Source: Bdellovibrionales bacterium (GTDB taxonomy: Bacteria > Bdellovibrionota_C > UBA2361 > SZUA-149). Taken from it: a stretch of 40,459 bases of DNA. The notes beneath the pieces are model-generated. The model did not search any database. It was not told the origin of the DNA and saw only the letters and a list, made by a program, of their open reading frames with translations. Location: NCBI GenBank assembly GCA_020434415.1, contig JAGRAW010000004.1, positions 1 through 40,459 of the forward strand, in the 5' to 3' direction. This document shows, one piece after another, positions 13,854-28,246 of this stretch; position 1 is the stretch's first letter; each line of letters starts with the position of its first letter. The translations under genes and the position numbers were made by a program.

Positions 13854-16751
13854 TCAGTGACGAGGGGCAAGCGGCAAGAGTTGCGCCAGACGGCTAATGA
13901 CGTTGAAGAGATGGTCGTAGAGAGGCACCCCGTAGGAGGTGAAGGGCCTCGTAAAATACCGCCCCTGCTCCCGCTCAGCAACCAAGCCCCTTTCGTGGTC
14001 CAACGTCCGAAGAAGGGCTTGGATCAATTCCAGCAGGTCGTCCTTGCGGGCCGCTTCGGCAAGCTGAAGATATGAGTGCCCTACTAACGAGAGCCGCGTA
14101 CCAAGCTCGATCGGGTGGAGTGGAAACCCCGAGGCGGCATTCGCTCTGAGGACGCGAACGTTCTCGCCAAGCGAATAAGCGTCGTCTAGGGAATACGCTC
14201 GACGGTATAGCTGCTCCTCGCTTACCTGCCCTGTCGCGATCCCCCCCTCCGCTTCGAGCAGCGTAAGCAAGACTTCACGCTCAGCCACTACCCCATCAAC
14301 GGCAAGTGTCCGATAGCGGTCGATCAACCCGCATCGTACGGCCGGGGCAAGCAGATGCGAATGGTAAAAACAGACCTTAAGAAACTGATTATACTGTAGT
14401 CGGTCCGGATAGGCTTCGTAGACCCTTTCAAAGTGGCGCTCGGTCAATTCCGCTGCCTGGTTCACTACCACCGAGAGATCCTCATGGTAGTGCAAATGTT
14501 CCTGCGTTCCCAGGAGCGAGCAGAGCACGTCCCATAGATGCACGGCACCGGATGCTTCGCTTCTTAGGCTGTCTTCGAAATGACGCAACGCAATAGTAGC
14601 GAAGCTGCTGGCCGCAGTTCGTATTTTGCGAATGTAGCCGGGTTTCTCACTCGAATCTTCCTCGAGCGAAAAAAGGCGCCCGACCTGCCGCAGACTCCAG
14701 AACAGCCTGCGCATTGCCACACGCTCAGCCATGGTAAGGGCATCAATTCGACGTTCCAGCAGTGCCGTTTCACACTCGACCTCGTTCGCGACGTAGTCGG
14801 GTTCCACACCAAGCTTTGCGAGCGCCGATAGCAAACGCCATTTTTCGGGCCCCTTGGTTCCCGATGCATCCCCACGCTGCAGTGCCGCGAACTTCTGAGT
14901 GAAGAGCTTCCGCATAGCAGGCGAAGCCCCGTATTCTCCCAAAATTCGAAACGCCACCCCGACGTCCCGCTCGAACTCCGAAGTAAGAAAACACTCGACA
15001 AACGGCTCGACGACGTCCTGCCACAGCGGGTCCAAGTTGTAGCTCGAAATGGAGCGCATGGCAGTGAACGTGCCGAAATGGCCGATACCATATCGACGGT
15101 CAAGACCGATTTCGTCGTCAGTCGCCAACATCGTCGTAACTAGTCGTCTCCCGAGTGCGTTCTCGTAGCGACGATCGCTGCGTCCAAGCTCTTGCACCGC
15201 GAGCGGCAGTACATTTCTCCAGGCCGGCGTGCGCAGGTGCCTCACAATGAACGCTTCGAGCGACTCCGGGTTATTCATCAGCGCTTTTGCAAGATAGAAG
15301 GCGCCGAAAATTGCGTCGAGGAACACGAATTCTTCGACAACGTCAACACAGCCGTCTCGCTCGACGAGGCGACGACGAAGGAACAGCGGTCCAATCGTAT
15401 CACGTTCACCGATCACATCTCCGAGTTCGCTGAATTCAAGACTATTGCGCTCCACACCGCGGGAAACCAAGAAAGACTCCCAGGCATCTTGCATGTCGCT
15501 ACGCGAAAAGTGCGGGATTCCCTCGTCTGCTTCGAGACTCTTCTCGTCGAGGTAGCGCTCCATGAGATAAATCAAAAAGTGGCGCCACTTAAGCCAGTGG
15601 TGCCCGGGAAGCTCGGACCGCGCCGCCCCACCTTGAAACGTGAGTCGCGCACCCGCCCAACTGTTCTCCAGGACTTCACAGCACGCATCACACAGCCCGG
15701 AGAGTTCCTGAAACGGTCGAAGCCCGAAGGCACTGTAGAGCGTGGTCAGCAAGTGAAACAACAGCGGCCACTGGGCAAGTGCGAACAGTGTGTCATTCGC
15801 CTGCACGACGAGCCAGAAGGTCTCCGCTTGCGCGTCGGATTCCCACGTCCATCGTTTGCAGGCTAGCTGCACCTCTCGGACGGTCCAACGCTCGAGCCGG
15901 CAACGACGGAATCCGTCGTAGCGCGCATCTTGGCCGACGAACGCCTCTTCTTGTCCGCTGATGATCAGCTTGCTCCCGGTAGGGCGAACTACCGCCTCGA
16001 AATGACGTTGCAAAAGCGCCAGGGTCTCCGCACGCAGGCGGTAATCTTCAATCTCGTCAAGACCGTCGAACAGCAGCAGCGCATTCCCACGTCCGATGCA
16101 TTGCTCGAAAAACCGCTCGAGCTGCTGGGCGGCACCCCTAAACCCGTTCTCGAGGTAGTAGTCCGTAAGCGACTGCACGAGCGAGCCGGGACGGAGTCGA
16201 AACGTCCCGAGCGAAACGAGCAGCGGCACATACGCCTGCGTACCGCCAAGCCCTCGACCGAAACCTTCCGTTTCCAGGGTCAGCATGCGTAGCAGCACAC
16301 TTTTTCCTGAGCCGATGGGGCCCGTCAAAAGAATCGCTCGATTCGCCTCGTCGTTGAAGAAGTCGATCGCCACATCCTGCCAGCCTCGTCGACTCCCTTG
16401 ATCATCGAGTACCTGCGGCGGTACATAGAGATCGCGAATCAAGCTCGTCACAGCCGGTATACGCGGAAGAACGAAGCGCGAATCCCACCACTTCACCTGC
16501 TCGCGGAGCCACAGAACGAACCGTTCCCTGTCCTCAGGGAGAGGTTGCACCAGTGCCGAGGCATCCTCGATACCGTAGAAGTGAGCCAGACGTTCTGCGA
16601 GTTCGGCTCGAAGCGGCTTGTGTCCCAGCTCGAGCGCTGAGAGATAGGCGTGGGTGATTCCGATACCTTCCGCAGCCTTGCGAAGCGAAAGGCCTGAGTT
16701 CTCTCTGACCTGTCGGAGTGTCGTCGTTTCCATCGCTACTCGCATATCCAA
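13854..16751 (-). CDS. HTH-NACHT NTPase (STAND-type signalling protein)
   Basis: This 965-residue protein couples DNA binding to a NACHT NTPase. Residues 10-62 form an XRE-type helix-turn-helix (SLRKAAEGIGITHAYLSALE). A linker leads to the NACHT domain with Walker A GPIGSGKS (144-151) and the family-typical Walker B LLLFDGLDE (225-233), both intact. A winged-helix-like segment with FLDAIFGAFYLAKAL follows. The remaining 450 or so residues look helical and contain no catalytic motif I recognise. NACHT STAND proteins oligomerise on ligand sensing. Bacterial members act as immune sensors or as regulators, and the HTH here replaces the nuclease effector seen in many defence versions. The TTG 16751 start has GAGG six bases upstream, and ATG 16745 is the alternative. 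It lies 32 bases after the NTF2-like gene and before the 582-residue gene. Confidence 0.88.
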   Translation of the reverse strand: MDMRVAMETTTLRQVRENSGLSLRKAAEGIGITHAYLSALELGHKPLRAELAERLAHFYGIEDASALVQPLPEDRERFVLWLREQVKWWDSRFVLPRIPAVTSLIRDLYVPPQVLDDQGSRRGWQDVAIDFFNDEANRAILLTGPIGSGKSVLLRMLTLETEGFGRGLGGTQAYVPLLVSLGTFRLRPGSLVQSLTDYYLENGFRGAAQQLERFFEQCIGRGNALLLFDGLDEIEDYRLRAETLALLQRHFEAVVRPTGSKLIISGQEEAFVGQDARYDGFRRCRLERWTVREVQLACKRWTWESDAQAETFWLVVQANDTLFALAQWPLLFHLLTTLYSAFGLRPFQELSGLCDACCEVLENSWAGARLTFQGGAARSELPGHHWLKWRHFLIYLMERYLDEKSLEADEGIPHFSRSDMQDAWESFLVSRGVERNSLEFSELGDVIGERDTIGPLFLRRRLVERDGCVDVVEEFVFLDAIFGAFYLAKALMNNPESLEAFIVRHLRTPAWRNVLPLAVQELGRSDRRYENALGRRLVTTMLATDDEIGLDRRYGIGHFGTFTAMRSISSYNLDPLWQDVVEPFVECFLTSEFERDVGVAFRILGEYGASPAMRKLFTQKFAALQRGDASGTKGPEKWRLLSALAKLGVEPDYVANEVECETALLERRIDALTMAERVAMRRLFWSLRQVGRLFSLEEDSSEKPGYIRKIRTAASSFATIALRHFEDSLRSEASGAVHLWDVLCSLLGTQEHLHYHEDLSVVVNQAAELTERHFERVYEAYPDRLQYNQFLKVCFYHSHLLAPAVRCGLIDRYRTLAVDGVVAEREVLLTLLEAEGGIATGQVSEEQLYRRAYSLDDAYSLGENVRVLRANAASGFPLHPIELGTRLSLVGHSYLQLAEAARKDDLLELIQALLRTLDHERGLVAEREQGRYFTRPFTSYGVPLYDHLFNVISRLAQLLPLAPRH

Positions 16752-20508: not shown

Positions 20509-22341
20509 TTAGCTCAAGAGTTTCAAGGCAAGTTGAGGTGATTGGTTCGCCTGTGCGAGAACCGCAATACCCGCTTGTTGCAGGATTTGACTTCGCACAA
20601 GCTTTGCAGCTTCTGACGCGACATCAACATCTGTGATTTGCGAAGCGGCGCTTACGAATGCCTCGCGGCTCTTCTGTAGGTTGGAGCTGGCGATAGTGAG
20701 GCGACTCAAGCCGGCGCCGATGACGCCAAGCTCTGCTGACACCCGCTCGAGAGTTTCGTCGAGCACCGCAGTCGCTTCCAACGCCTCGGCTTGGGTGAGT
20801 AGTCGGACGTGCGCCATTTCGGTAACGGTCGTCGTCTCTGCGAGCGTCACAAGCGTGCGGTTGCTTGCGGATCTGATGATGTCGGCCGCTCCATCACCAT
20901 TCACGTCACCGACTGCAAGAGCTCTCGAGGTCGTTGCACCAACTGCCAGCGAGACCGAGGTGGCAAAAGTGCCGCTACCGGTTCCCAATGCGACATGCAC
21001 GAATGCGCCACTGTAATCCGCTTCGACTATGTCCAGGATGCCGTCGCCGTTCATATCGCTAAACTGCGCCAGATCGCCAATCACTCCGGCAATCACCGTC
21101 TCGGGCGCCGTAAAAGTCCCGTCGCCGTTCGAACGCAGGATGAATGCATCGTTGTTGTTCAGTAGCAGGTCGCTGTAGCCGTCGTCGTCGATATCAGCGA
21201 TTGCAACATCATAGGCTTCAACCGCAATTGATGTCGCAGCCCTGAAGCTACCGTCGGCATTGGCGAGCGCGATGTAGGTCGTGGTACCCATAGCACGTGC
21301 GACGTCAGCATATCCATCGCCGTTGAAGTCACCAGCGGCAACCCGTCCGTTCACGCCAAAGGCGTAGCTCGCAGTTGCCTTGAAGGTGCCGTCGCCGTTT
21401 CCCAAAAGAACATCGATACCGTTGTTACGGGCTCCCAGCAGGTCGAGTGCTCCGTCACCATTTACGTCGACGCTTAGTACATTGATAATCGTGTTCGAGG
21501 CGCTATACTGTACGTCTGCCTCGAACGTGCCGTCACCATTACCGATGTAAACTTTAAAGTCTGCAGTGGCGGTGACAATATCGAGATTTCCGTCCCCGTT
21601 ATAGTCGCCGCTGGAAACGACTCCGCTATTTGACACCCCCCCATCAACGATCGCTGCTCCCTTGAAAGTGCCGTCGCCGTTGCCCTGAAAGAACTCGATG
21701 GAGTGAGTGCTCCCGGTAGTGATGAAGTCGAGGTCGGAATCGTTATTGAAGTCTCCCGTGGTAAGGCCATTTACGCTGATTGTTCCCGCCAAGACGTTCG
21801 CGGTAAACAGTCCGCTGAACGTACCCGTGCCTACAGTTCTCTCGAGCTCTGCTCCGAGCTGCAGCGGAATGTTTCCCAACGTTGCGTAGCCGGCCTGCAC
21901 GCCGATTTCCTCCAGCGTCCCGTCGAGCAGTGTTCTGGTATTGAAGTCAGTGCTGGCTATGATTCGGTTAAATTCGCTGGTCAGCGCATTCGCTTCGTCG
22001 TGCAGTGCACGTCGCTGAGTCAAAGACAAAGTGCCGTTAGACGCCTGTGAGGCCAGCTCGCGCTGACGGATGACAATGTTACGCATCTCATTGAGAGCCC
22101 CTTCGGCAACGCTTAGCATGCTGACCGCATCGTTGACATTGCGGTAGCCCTGAGCGTAGACCGCAGCATCAGCATTCAGCCCGGCAGCAATAGCCAGTCC
22201 CGCAGCATCGTCCTTCGCTTTGTTGATTCGTAGTCCGGATGAAAGTCGGGAGAACGACTCGCTCAACGAGGCCGTGCTGGCAGCAACAGCACGCTGCGTC
22301 CGAAGCGACGCGATATTGGAACGGAGCGAAATACTACTCAT
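20509..22341 (-). CDS. fliC: Flagellin with seven FG-GAP/VCBS-type repeats inserted in the variable region
   Basis: This is the filament subunit of the bacterial flagellum, secreted unfolded through the flagellar export apparatus. Residues 1-165 are a canonical flagellin D0/D1 half (FSRLSSGLRINKAKDDAAGL, then GYRNVNDAVSMLSVAEGAL). Residues 510-610 are the matching C-terminal half, with a typical ending in ILQQAGIAVLAQANQ. Between them, residues 185-500 carry seven calcium-type motifs of the DxNxDGxxD kind beginning at residues 197, 246, 292, 338, 383, 429 and 479. Most are followed by a GNGDGTF-type turn. The spacing of 45-50 residues and count of seven match an integrin-alpha-like seven-bladed beta-propeller. 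Upstream, GCCGATAG (22412-22419) is a sigma-28-like -10 box. GGTGG seven bases before ATG 22341 is a suitable ribosome-binding site. Confidence 0.95.
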   Translation of the reverse strand: MSSISLRSNIASLRTQRAVAASTASLSESFSRLSSGLRINKAKDDAAGLAIAAGLNADAAVYAQGYRNVNDAVSMLSVAEGALNEMRNIVIRQRELASQASNGTLSLTQRRALHDEANALTSEFNRIIASTDFNTRTLLDGTLEEIGVQAGYATLGNIPLQLGAELERTVGTGTFSGLFTANVLAGTISVNGLTTGDFNNDSDLDFITTGSTHSIEFFQGNGDGTFKGAAIVDGGVSNSGVVSSGDYNGDGNLDIVTATADFKVYIGNGDGTFEADVQYSASNTIINVLSVDVNGDGALDLLGARNNGIDVLLGNGDGTFKATASYAFGVNGRVAAGDFNGDGYADVARAMGTTTYIALANADGSFRAATSIAVEAYDVAIADIDDDGYSDLLLNNNDAFILRSNGDGTFTAPETVIAGVIGDLAQFSDMNGDGILDIVEADYSGAFVHVALGTGSGTFATSVSLAVGATTSRALAVGDVNGDGAADIIRSASNRTLVTLAETTTVTEMAHVRLLTQAEALEATAVLDETLERVSAELGVIGAGLSRLTIASSNLQKSREAFVSAASQITDVDVASEAAKLVRSQILQQAGIAVLAQANQSPQLALKLLS

Positions 22342-22411: not shown

Positions 22412-22439
22412 CTATCGGCCAAATCTGCAGATTCCCTGA
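22412..22439 (-). promoter_or_regulatory. sigma-28-like promoter candidate for flagellin
   Basis: On the minus strand GCCGATAG (22412-22419) matches the FliA -10 box GCCGATAA at 7/8, about 70 bases before the flagellin start. Fifteen bases upstream is TCAGG, a partial match to the TCAAG/TAAA -35 forms. A better -35-like GAAAGTTC is present, but about seven bases too far away. The -10 is convincing and the -35 is weak. Confidence 0.4.
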
Positions 22440-24806: not shown

Positions 24807-27719
24807 CTACTGTCCCATAAAGGAAAGGACATACTCTCCCGGCCGAGAGACATAGTTTCGGAAAACCAGCCCGCCCTGGTCGCTCTGCACGGTAATCGAG
24901 CCGTAAGTATCTTTAGGCAGGTCGAACATGATCCGCTCCGTCGCTCGTGGGGCCAGCACGAACTCAAGCTGCAGCACTTCGTTGTTATCCGCGTCTGTAG
25001 CTCGAACCTGAACCGTTCGCGGTTCGCTGCTGGTGTTGTGGAACTCGCCGGTATTCTCGTTCCCGATGAAGCTGTTGAACTCGCTAATTTGCACGATTCC
25101 AGGCGAAGCGGTCAGCGGCGCGGCATAGGCATACTCCAGCACTCCCGACTCGCTTAGCTTGTAGAAGATAGACATTGCGCTCGTCGAACCACGCGTTGCC
25201 TTCACACGTGCGCTGCCCACAGTATCGGTAGCGAAGAATCCCTGCTCGCCACTCTGATTGATGATGATGTGACGAGTGGCCCGTGCCGGGATATCGATCT
25301 CCGACTGAGCAACCAATGCTCCGGTTCGAACGAAGGGAGAAAGCTCTGCGCTTACCAATTGCTCTCCCGCGTTATTGAACTCCAGAATGGCAACTTCTCC
25401 CTTCACGGTAGAAACGCCACCGGAAATCTCGACGTCGGTTGCCGGTCGATTTGGCACGACAAACGCCGTGTAGAAATCCGAACAGCTTGCGCCGACACAA
25501 TCGTAGAAATAGCGACCGAGAGAGATATAGTATTTCGGTTCGCTACCATCCTTGTTTCGCTTCGGCCGAAACTGCGCCATACCGACCTGATCAATATTGT
25601 CAGGCCCGGCGACACCTTCATGACCGGAGAAGTCGTAGCGTCCGCCATCCGGCAGATCAACCGCGACCACACCTATTTCCTCCCCGGACTCCGAGAAGTA
25701 GTGGAGTGAGCCCTGGAGTCGCTGCCCGTCGCCACGCTCAGCGTCGGTTATCCGCACCCAGTTCGCGATCGTACCTTCCTGCCTAACGCCGAAGTGAAAG
25801 GTGTTAAGCGGAAGCGTGTAATCACCCTGCCGCGGATTGGTGAACGGATAGTAAAGGACAAAATCGAAGTCCGACCCGAAACGGGCATCACCGTCTCTGG
25901 TGTTCGCCTTATACAGGGTAACACCACCGCTCCACGCACCGCGTGCTTGCGTGTCTACCTCGACACAGACTGTTCCGTAGGTATCGAGCTCGAGCCCCAT
26001 TTCGTTCACGATGAAGTCCATTTTCTGGAACGGAGCGAGCTCTGCCGATGCAGTGCCTTTCACCTCGCCGAAGCGGTCGCGATAGGCAATCTCGAACAGC
26101 AACGGAGTCGAAAATCTGTTAATGACCGTCGCAATGTTTACTTGCCCGAGAAATCCGTTCGCGCTCGCACACGCCTGAGGATCGAGCTCCTCAAAAATGC
26201 ACTCCTCGCCTTCTTGACACGTATCTTCGTCGCCCGGTCTCCAACCTTCATCTTGATTGCTAATCGAGCCATTGTCACATACTGCCGTGTAGTGATAGCG
26301 CTGATCCGGAGTTGCTGACGTATCTTCAAAGCGAGTAGCAGCGCTTGCGCTTACCAGCAGCTCCCCTCGGCTACCGGCCGCTTCGGAACGGTAGATATCG
26401 CAGGTCTTCGCCTGAGGATCTTTTGTCCACGTTACCAACACGTAGTCCTTGAAGGTTCCATCGGACGCATCGATGACGATCGGCTTTGCCTCAGGGCGGC
26501 ACTCGCCATTCGAAAGTGCGAACATATCGGCACATGCCAGCAAGAAGTTACGCTCGGTTTGGGCAGCACCGTTTACCACCACCGGGTTGGAGAAGGTAGT
26601 GGAGACCACTACATATCCCGGCTTGGAGGCGCTGAGGGAATATGACCCGTTCGGAACCGACGTGAACTGGTAGCTGCCGTTTGCTGCGGTAGATTTGCCG
26701 CCGGTAATGCCGGAGGCACTGACGGTAACGCCCGCCACCGGCGTGTTCGTGCCCTGAAGCAACGCGCGTCCACTGATACTGTAGACCGCAACACACTCAT
26801 TACCTGCTCGAGCGAATCCGTCGGCACAATCGAGCACAAAATTCTTGTTCGGTTGATTGCCGCCGTTTACCACCACAGGGTTGGAGAAGTTCTGCGACAC
26901 AACGACATAGCCCGGTTTGCTGGCCGCCAGCGTGTATGAGCCGTTCGGCACGTTCGGGAAGCTGTAGGCACCACTGCCGTTCGTGCTCTTGTTCGACTGA
27001 CCCGAAGCGGTCACCGTCACTCCGGACAGCGGGGTGTTCGAGCCCTGAAGCGTCGCGGTCCCAGAAATTGTATAAGCTGCCGGGCAGACGTAGGTCAGTT
27101 TTGCCCGCAGTTGCTCAGCAGTGTTACGGCCATTCGCATTCACCGTTCGAAACCGCAGCAAAACGTAAAAGGGCGAGCCGGAAGTTATACCTCCGAGGGG
27201 GGAGAGACTGGTAAACTCGATTGTTTGGCTGTCATTGTTACCATCGACGACAATACTCGCGGTGTCATCATTGATATCATCGATAAAGTTGGTCGAGCCG
27301 CCGGTCCCAAGAAACTGGATTTTTTCACGGAATGTCCCGCCGTCGTTGACCGGCAGTAGGTCCAGATCGTCAAAATAGAATTTCAGACGAATATCAGTCG
27401 CACACTGAGGTACCGCATCGAATCGCAGGTACATGTCCAGACTGCCGCCCGGTGACCCCTGGTCGGACACCGTTCCAACGATGCCGCCGTTATCGACGCC
27501 GTAGATGCCGCTCGCACTGGGAGAGAATGGAATGAAGTACGTAATCAAACCATCCGGATCATACGTCCCCACATTTGTTGATGTGCCGAACGACGCGACC
27601 GGGTACCCGGGTATCATTCCGCTTCCGTCGCTCGCCGCGAACGCGCCGGAAACCGAGCACAAAATTAGAAATCCCGTGAAAGCAAAAAGACGCATGGAAT
27701 TGAGAAAGAGCGAAAGCAT
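24807..27719 (-). CDS. Large secreted protein with tandem carboxypeptidase-regulatory-like domains
   Basis: A 970-residue exported protein. From ATG 27719 (AGGTG six bases upstream) it has a signal peptide, MLSLFLNSMRLFAFTGFLIL to SGAFA, cleaved before ASDGS. Residues 10-200 of the mature part form a beta-rich domain with Asp/Gly-rich loops. Two consecutive units of about 95 residues follow, each with (Y)SISG-A-LQGTNTP, GVTV-ASG, PNGSY-L-ASKPGYVVVS and FSNPVVVNG. These are typical of CarboxypepD-regulatory-like or SdrD-B-like folds, which usually act as spacers or binding modules. Each is followed by a Cys-containing linker. A fibronectin-III-like stretch and a long C-terminal half without recognisable motifs come next. 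No sorting signal is visible. It is likely a surface or released structural or adhesive protein. It converges with the FAD/Rieske gene. Confidence 0.82.
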   Translation of the reverse strand: MLSLFLNSMRLFAFTGFLILCSVSGAFAASDGSGMIPGYPVASFGTSTNVGTYDPDGLITYFIPFSPSASGIYGVDNGGIVGTVSDQGSPGGSLDMYLRFDAVPQCATDIRLKFYFDDLDLLPVNDGGTFREKIQFLGTGGSTNFIDDINDDTASIVVDGNNDSQTIEFTSLSPLGGITSGSPFYVLLRFRTVNANGRNTAEQLRAKLTYVCPAAYTISGTATLQGSNTPLSGVTVTASGQSNKSTNGSGAYSFPNVPNGSYTLAASKPGYVVVSQNFSNPVVVNGGNQPNKNFVLDCADGFARAGNECVAVYSISGRALLQGTNTPVAGVTVSASGITGGKSTAANGSYQFTSVPNGSYSLSASKPGYVVVSTTFSNPVVVNGAAQTERNFLLACADMFALSNGECRPEAKPIVIDASDGTFKDYVLVTWTKDPQAKTCDIYRSEAAGSRGELLVSASAATRFEDTSATPDQRYHYTAVCDNGSISNQDEGWRPGDEDTCQEGEECIFEELDPQACASANGFLGQVNIATVINRFSTPLLFEIAYRDRFGEVKGTASAELAPFQKMDFIVNEMGLELDTYGTVCVEVDTQARGAWSGGVTLYKANTRDGDARFGSDFDFVLYYPFTNPRQGDYTLPLNTFHFGVRQEGTIANWVRITDAERGDGQRLQGSLHYFSESGEEIGVVAVDLPDGGRYDFSGHEGVAGPDNIDQVGMAQFRPKRNKDGSEPKYYISLGRYFYDCVGASCSDFYTAFVVPNRPATDVEISGGVSTVKGEVAILEFNNAGEQLVSAELSPFVRTGALVAQSEIDIPARATRHIIINQSGEQGFFATDTVGSARVKATRGSTSAMSIFYKLSESGVLEYAYAAPLTASPGIVQISEFNSFIGNENTGEFHNTSSEPRTVQVRATDADNNEVLQLEFVLAPRATERIMFDLPKDTYGSITVQSDQGGLVFRNYVSRPGEYVLSFMGQ
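26577..27070. repeat. two diverged direct repeats inside the secreted-protein gene
   Basis: The two carboxypeptidase-regulatory-like domains are still visible as DNA repeats. Segments around 26577-26790 and 26868-27070 share long identical stretches, such as ACCACC-GGGTTGGAGAAG and GAGCCCTGAAGC-type runs. This indicates a recent tandem duplication within the gene. Confidence 0.6.
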
Positions 27720-28246
27720 AGCGACACCTACCCTTGAATGAGTCCGGCATGAACCCATCAATACACGTGCCAACCGCCATCTTCTCGTTCACAGCCGGTT
27801 TCCCGGCATCGGAAAGACGTTCGGCACAGGAACTCTGCCGTAGAGTAGTCCAAGCCTTGACGGAAAACGCTTCTGAAAAAGTGAGCTACTGCCGAGGGAA
27901 ACGCCAGATGACGGCTCGTTCGATCCGGATCGATCTACTTGGACCAAACGCCAAGACGGCTCAGCGCTGTCACGATGCCGACGAGCGATTAGGTGCACGG
28001 CCGGCCAGCTATTGGCGCAGCAGCGTCAAAAATCCGGTTCTTTTAAGCGATATGCCGACATTGAACCGGCTCGTAGCATCGCAGCTCATCCGAAGCGATG
28101 TCCCCCGGGGGGGGGCAGGTGATCCCGCCCGCGTTGTTTGGTATGATGCACTACCCTCCGCAAGTCCTATGGCAGGGCGTTACATTCATTTCTCTGCAAT
28201 GAGTGAGCATACGGTTCTTTGACAGAACGCTTCACATGAGAAAAGA
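27720..28246. other. intergenic region without a supportable gene
   Basis: This is the divergent region between the secreted protein and the DUF5685-like gene. A 162-codon frame (27734-28222, plus strand) is open, but its composition and lack of motifs or ribosome-binding site argue against coding. A G-run beginning CCCCCGGGGGGGGG lies near 28100. Promoters for both genes should be here, but I cannot define them. Confidence 0.4.

Follow-up and report, generated by a model that had tools for sequence, protein, structure and literature searches.

Flagellins that carry foreign domains in their outer region are known. Inserted outer domains of 61 types, including flagellinolysin, vWFA, and Sialidase, have been reported, and ten flagellins with a Sialidase domain were counted in the same survey (Eckhard et al. 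2017, PMC5595980). The Sialidase domain is a six-bladed propeller. Giant flagellins combine internal duplication of a flagellin-specific domain with a further insert and form thick filaments (Thomson et al. 2018, PMC6248924); FG-GAP and VCBS go unmentioned in that study. Recently, 682 flagellin outer domains were reportedly clustered by structure (Fields et al. 2024, Nat Commun 15:9500). Multi-flagellin filaments are found in Caulobacter, Vibrio, Shewanella, and magnetotactic cocci, and the paralogues in such filaments differ modestly. Work on the outer domains of flagellins has usually dealt with a single domain type in each species.

Here we analysed a flagellin gene from an uncultured lineage, a Bdellovibrionales bacterium (GCA_020434415.1, contig JAGRAW010000004.1), in a stretch of 40,459 nt (hereafter the window). 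As in the flagellins surveyed by Eckhard et al., a foreign domain occupies the variable region exposed at the surface, with D0/D1 intact on either side; unlike those flagellins, the domain is a calcium-type FG-GAP propeller and belongs to large paralogue families, and FG-GAP is not in the top ten of that paper's main text. The enlarged outer region is shared with giant flagellins, and the presence of several flagellin paralogues per genome is shared with the multi-flagellin filaments listed above, from which our case differs in that, apart from the motifs of the fold, the outer domains of different copies have almost nothing in common. The domain itself resembles CRTAC1, integrin alpha, and bacterial VCBS proteins in its FG-GAP_3 repeats, DxNxDGxxD loops, and seven blades, but, unlike these propellers, it is predicted to be permuted at blade 7 and is inserted in D1. 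While foreign domains in flagellin are known, an FG-GAP/VCBS propeller insert is apparently undescribed within the literature we searched, although an unnamed propeller cluster in Fields et al. 2024 is not excluded. The first-pass annotation of this locus, which knew of no described propeller flagellin, needs the qualifier that the ten Sialidase flagellins exist; the FG-GAP/VCBS type was not found in the literature searched.

A flagellin with a predicted seven-bladed propeller insert

The gene (Table 1) lies in a genome of 4.54 Mb on 677 contigs that is ~80% complete. Its 610-aa product matched Flagellin_N (PF00669; residues 8-142, E 1.1e-32, 113.4 bits against a cut-off of 26.6) and Flagellin_C (PF00700; residues 526-609, E 4.9e-17, 62.5 bits against a cut-off of 23) in Pfam, together with seven stretches of FG-GAP_3 (E 1.1e-44), and all three domains were present in 56 of 56 aligned relatives. 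The calcium motifs start 45-50 residues apart, and six of the seven match D/N-x-D/N-x-D/N/S-G-x-x-D exactly, the first having S in the G position; in 2000 shuffles of the protein this pattern occurred 0.017 times on average and at most once. No HExxH was present in the 610-aa sequence and no peptidase matched in Pfam, so the protein does not qualify as a flagellinolysin (i.e., a flagellin with a gluzincin metallopeptidase insert). The architecture of flagellin D0/D1 halves flanking an FG-GAP calcium-type propeller is well supported, with calcium binding and filament assembly remaining inferences.

Table 1. Positions of the propeller flagellin gene and its parts in the window
Feature	Position	Strand	Evidence
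Propeller flagellin gene, 610 aa	20509..22341	-	ORF; Pfam Flagellin_N, FG-GAP_3 (seven), Flagellin_C
N-terminal D0/D1 half, residues 1-142	21916..22341	-	Flagellin_N; model helices 6-34, 46-100, 107-130
C-terminal D1/D0 half, residues 517-610	20512..20793	-	Flagellin_C; model helix 517-609
Inserted seven-bladed beta-propeller (predicted), residues 168-506	20824..21840	-	Model strands and pLDDT; Foldseek to solved propellers
Strand D of blade 7 (predicted closure strand), residues 168-182, with GDGTF-type motif 171-175	21796..21840	-	Homologue conservation; model strand
Putative calcium loop, blade 1, DFNNDSDLD, residues 197-205	21727..21753	-	Effectively all 98 homologues keep D at 1/5/9
Putative calcium loop, blade 2, DYNGDGNLD, residues 246-254	21580..21606	-	Motif pattern; homologue conservation
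Putative calcium loop, blade 3, DVNGDGALD, residues 292-300	21442..21468	-	Motif pattern; homologue conservation
Putative calcium loop, blade 4, DFNGDGYAD, residues 338-346	21304..21330	-	Motif pattern; homologue conservation
Putative calcium loop, blade 5, DIDDDGYSD, residues 383-391	21169..21195	-	Motif pattern; homologue conservation
Putative calcium loop, blade 6, DMNGDGILD, residues 429-437	21031..21057	-	Motif pattern; homologue conservation
Putative calcium loop, blade 7, DVNGDGAAD, residues 479-487	20881..20907	-	Motif pattern; homologue conservation
Putative sigma-28 (FliA) -10 element, GCCGATAG, upstream of gene	22412..22419	-	Weak for a single gene

An AlphaFold2 model of the protein, made with an alignment of 56 relatives as input, showed flagellin helices and a closed seven-bladed propeller (mean pLDDT 88, pTM 0.80). 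Confidence was mostly high across residues 190-510 (pLDDT 86-97), with a weaker block near 231-240 (69); most of the insert exceeded 90, and its blades are predicted to be four-stranded. A divergent tandem paralogue with a very different insert was also modelled confidently (mean pLDDT 86.6). In Foldseek searches with the window model, the core matched solved flagellin filaments and the insert matched solved seven-bladed propellers, the nearest of which were the fungal GlcNAc lectins PAL, PVL, and AAL2, plus CRTAC1, BBS1, and KICSTOR subunits (TM ~0.5-0.68, normalised by the propeller targets). The paralogue model matched the same propellers and the bacterial UmbA4 complex. Integrin alpha was not among the best 50 Foldseek matches of the window model, whereas other seven-bladed propellers were.

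Most of what the first-pass annotation had read from sequence alone held: the insert at 20842-21789, which corresponds to residues 185-500 on the minus strand of the 610-aa ORF; the seven FG-GAP/VCBS motifs and their positions (strictly so in six of the seven); and intact D0/D1 halves on both sides, with Flagellin_N and Flagellin_C above their cut-offs. Its proposal of a closed seven-bladed propeller is supported by AlphaFold2 and Foldseek on both the window protein and the divergent paralogue, and the outcome that it had named as a refutation, an insert not folding as a propeller, was seen in neither. As for its integrin-alpha-like label, the closest solved propellers among the best 50 matches are instead the fungal lectins, CRTAC1, and BBS1/KICSTOR subunits named above.

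A predicted permuted propeller suited to grafting into D1

In each of blades 1-6, strands C and D are joined by a turn of the G-N-G-D-G-T-F type. The end of blade 7 has no such turn motif, which is found instead at the N-terminal edge of the insert, near the start of a long modelled strand (168-182), and is conserved among homologues (G171 in 83, G173 in 90, and F175 in 73 of 98). The first strand of the insert therefore closes blade 7, and we conclude, as a prediction from the model and sequence conservation, that the propeller is circularly permuted, its opening lying at the hairpin that links strands C and D in blade 7. By strand order, the opened hairpin shares a face with the calcium loops, and thus the calcium face likely lies toward D1 and the filament while the opposite loops point outward; this orientation is inferred from topology and strand order rather than from coordinates. 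Since both ends of the insert emerge together on the calcium-loop face, the propeller would be graftable into a D1 loop with D0 and D1 undisturbed. On this prediction, the case shows that a closed propeller can be inserted in a flagellin via permutation at one hairpin.

A multigene family in the source phylum

What the first-pass annotation had missed is that the gene is not a single oddity but belongs to a multigene family that spans the lineage, ten of whose members lie in the source genome. That genome has 17 Flagellin_N matches: besides the ten with propellers, six are plain flagellins of roughly 270-300 aa, and the remaining one is an FlgL-type gene that adjoins flagellar structural genes. 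In the same phylum, at least 121 strong matches were detected in 19 of 46 genomes, with up to 19 per genome; these counts are lower bounds, as no more than 27 candidates were scored per genome. The named carriers were MAGs labelled Bdellovibrionales (HKST-UBA19/20/25), Deltaproteobacteria (mag.25, UWPOB_DELTA1, and UBA2409), and Proteobacteria (H1_MAG_00014), together with Co_bin.265/267/93. The same architecture in 19 genomes from independent assemblies rules out a chimeric assembly or binning artefact. Complete family proteins are mostly 597-654 aa long and carry seven calcium loops. Some copies are in tandem and nearly overlapping (four genes at L188 and three at L191) and others are scattered, and a comparison of flanking genes found no neighbour widely common to the propeller-flagellin loci.

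No propeller flagellin was found in five other phyla (132, 77, 40, 291, and 17 genomes; 557 in total), though this search had no positive control and many phyla were unsampled, and absence elsewhere is therefore not shown. Among plasmids, 80% coverage of the query was reached by no record, and the matches returned were either flagellins or FG-GAP proteins, not both. In a tree of the cores of propeller and other flagellins, in which support was mostly weak, parsimony counted five switches from one kind to the other, so that the number of origins of the insert is unsettled.

Two other kinds of flagellin in this phylum are worth recording. A 623-aa flagellin of Co_bin.267 (L079, 2447-4477, plus strand) has an insert resembling TolB/PD40-like repeats (Pfam PD40, E 9e-4, just under the cut-off) and may possibly represent a second, independent propeller insertion. 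Four flagellins of ~460-475 aa (L055, 3980-5422; L058, 1034-2497; L075, 3905-5365; and L195, 1625-3001) have two or three FG-GAP-type repeats and are perhaps reduced relatives of the seven-blade form.

Conserved cores and divergent inserts

The cores of paralogues are 43-96% identical (within-genome means 49-87%), whereas within-genome mean identities of the inserts, outside the repeat motifs, are only 15-28%. In a four-gene tandem array, the cores are 89-94% identical and the inserts 31-36%. The aspartates of the putative calcium sites hardly vary: 84 of 98 complete homologues keep Asp strictly at positions 1, 5, and 9 in every one of the seven loops. Mean entropy across the 98 proteins was low in the core (1.3-1.6 bits), the calcium loops (1.35), and the C-D turns (1.78) and higher in the opposite-face loops (3.22 and 3.33), with the strands in between. 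No conserved surface patches were seen in homologue conservation beyond the calcium loops and turns.

We then compared pS and pN in the best-resolved genome, H1_MAG_00014 (G006). Here, pS was 0.57-0.68 in every gene part, while pN rose from 0.07-0.16 (core) through 0.22 (calcium loops) to 0.59-0.64 (opposite-face loops); the corresponding dN/dS was ~0.05-0.13 in the D0/D1 core and roughly 0.8-0.9, not above 1, in the opposite-face loops. Since pS is even along the gene, its parts are of the same age and the divergence of the inserts arose in situ; exchange of the insert as a cassette is for the same reason unsupported. Change on the exposed face is thus near-neutral or mildly constrained, and positive selection is not shown. 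In one tandem array, the tail of the core is locally near-identical between copies. A syntenic orthologue pair from congeneric genomes is 82% identical in the core and 47% in the insert, but the flanking genes are themselves only 53% and 71% identical, so the insert evolves fast relative to the core and not relative to every other gene.

As a separate observation in H1_MAG_00014, repeated intergenic DNA common to dispersed copies lies upstream of propeller flagellins at loci L102, L149-L154, and L207. The repeat contains TTCTGC/GCAGAA inverted-repeat pieces and is possibly mobile or linked to duplication.

Proposed function and alternative explanations

We favour, with moderate confidence, the hypothesis that these proteins are diversified recognition modules, rigidified by calcium and carried on mixed filaments, which perhaps bind glycans; calcium occupancy, assembly, orientation, and ligand binding are all inferred. 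Mechanistically, calcium would rigidify the propeller domain, and the ten gene copies (up to 19 in relatives), with their constrained cores and strongly divergent inserts, would be built into filaments together or swapped in them. Such mixed filaments may display varied recognition surfaces, which would most likely bind glycans or particle surfaces, so that the filament, besides serving in swimming, would gain a role in adhesion or recognition. The adhesive or calcium-dependent roles and the display in thousands of copies per filament, both already suggested at first pass, remain inference without binding or filament data.

The glycan part of this hypothesis draws on the fungal lectins PVL (2bwm), PAL (5mb4), and AAL2 (4tqj), which lead the PDB entries in sequence similarity to the insert and rank among the closest in fold. 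They share similar D-G / N-G-D-G-T-F repeats with the insert (Foldseek E ~1e-11 at 18-22% identity, repeat-driven), and a sequence search with the insert alone returned the same lectins (phmmer E 4.5e-8 for 4tqj), a match that is again weak and repeat-driven. Unlike these lectins, the propeller is flagellin-borne. The window insert contains no Trp and just 2 His, so retention of a sugar pocket like that of the fungal lectins is not evident. Without ligand data, we regard the lectin link only as a lead.

Other points count against the recognition reading in general. Relaxed constraint explains the dN/dS of ~0.8-0.9 in the variable loops as well as selection for diversity does, and there are no ligand, expression, or filament data, with the genes scattered and without a conserved neighbour. 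A bolder version, in which the filaments are a polyvalent display of calcium-propeller receptors with each copy serving a different ligand, is one we would not quite endorse. If it were true, the swimming organelle would double as a diversified capture or recognition surface with a constant core and a variable face.

Escape and mechanical-coat readings fit much of the same evidence as the recognition reading. A possible alternative is that the propeller is an inert, stable shield whose surface diversifies for escape, with flagellum-binding phages, predators, or grazers selecting changing surfaces and no ligand for each copy. This would fit the near-neutral exposed positions alongside retained calcium sites and hydrophobic core, as well as the many divergent copies per genome. 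However, the even pS in H1_MAG_00014 gives no sign of recombination or cassette exchange, and at least one locus has been kept in place between two congeneric genomes, which argues against a fast switching system. We consider it unlikely that the role is mainly mechanical, with the inserts forming a strongly acidic, calcium-stiffened coat that makes the filament thicker or provides contacts between filaments, and with the sequence variation outside the fold due to drift. In its favour, the mean net charge of the inserts is -35, which is very acidic, the proteins are uniform in size with seven calcium loops, and published reports credit outer domains with thickening filaments or modulating motility in viscous media (PMC6248924; PMC8931119); but this explanation leaves up to 19 divergent copies per genome unaccounted for, and a contact surface should show conserved patches, of which there are none beyond the calcium loops and turns. 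Least likely, these could be minor components or secreted proteins rather than filament subunits, with the flagellar export signal serving to send propeller adhesins out to the surface or the medium, as their location beside unrelated genes and the six short plain flagellins that could form the filament would allow, but the complete D0/D1 on both sides is under strong purifying selection (dN/dS ~0.05-0.13) of the kind demanded by polymerisation and not by export alone.

Returning to the recognition reading, if the proteins assemble, they would provide a natural high-density display of propellers, thousands per filament, with diversity built in. Up to 19 flagellins in one genome here carry the same calcium-type propeller scaffold with different surfaces, and such paralogues, with a common core and differing only in the insert, make the purpose of an outer domain directly testable.

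Expression, flagellar machinery, and neighbouring genes

The putative -10 element upstream of the window gene is only weak evidence for a promoter, as the match alone does not exceed chance (the 8-mer occurs three times in the window, which is within chance). Across the family, sigma-28-like sites, with 9 or more matches out of 11, were found upstream of 34% of propeller flagellins versus 7% in shuffles, and genes within tandem arrays have no room for a promoter of their own. The source genome encodes FlhA (one complete gene and several fragments) and, as read from translations, FlgH-, FlgI-, FlgK-, and FlgL-like genes on one contig. In the same genome, two FliD cap genes stand in tandem (contig C666, 25659-27716; L209 and L210), which, together with the complete and partial FlhA elsewhere, possibly suggests more than one flagellar or export system.

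Within the window, 13854-16751 (minus strand) encodes a protein that joins an XRE-type HTH to a NACHT NTPase, an architecture of the STAND type known in defence and signalling proteins, and 24807-27773 (minus strand) encodes a large protein with carboxypeptidase-regulatory-like repeats. Similar neighbouring ORFs link the window with two other loci, L018 and L167, all of which carry propeller flagellins.
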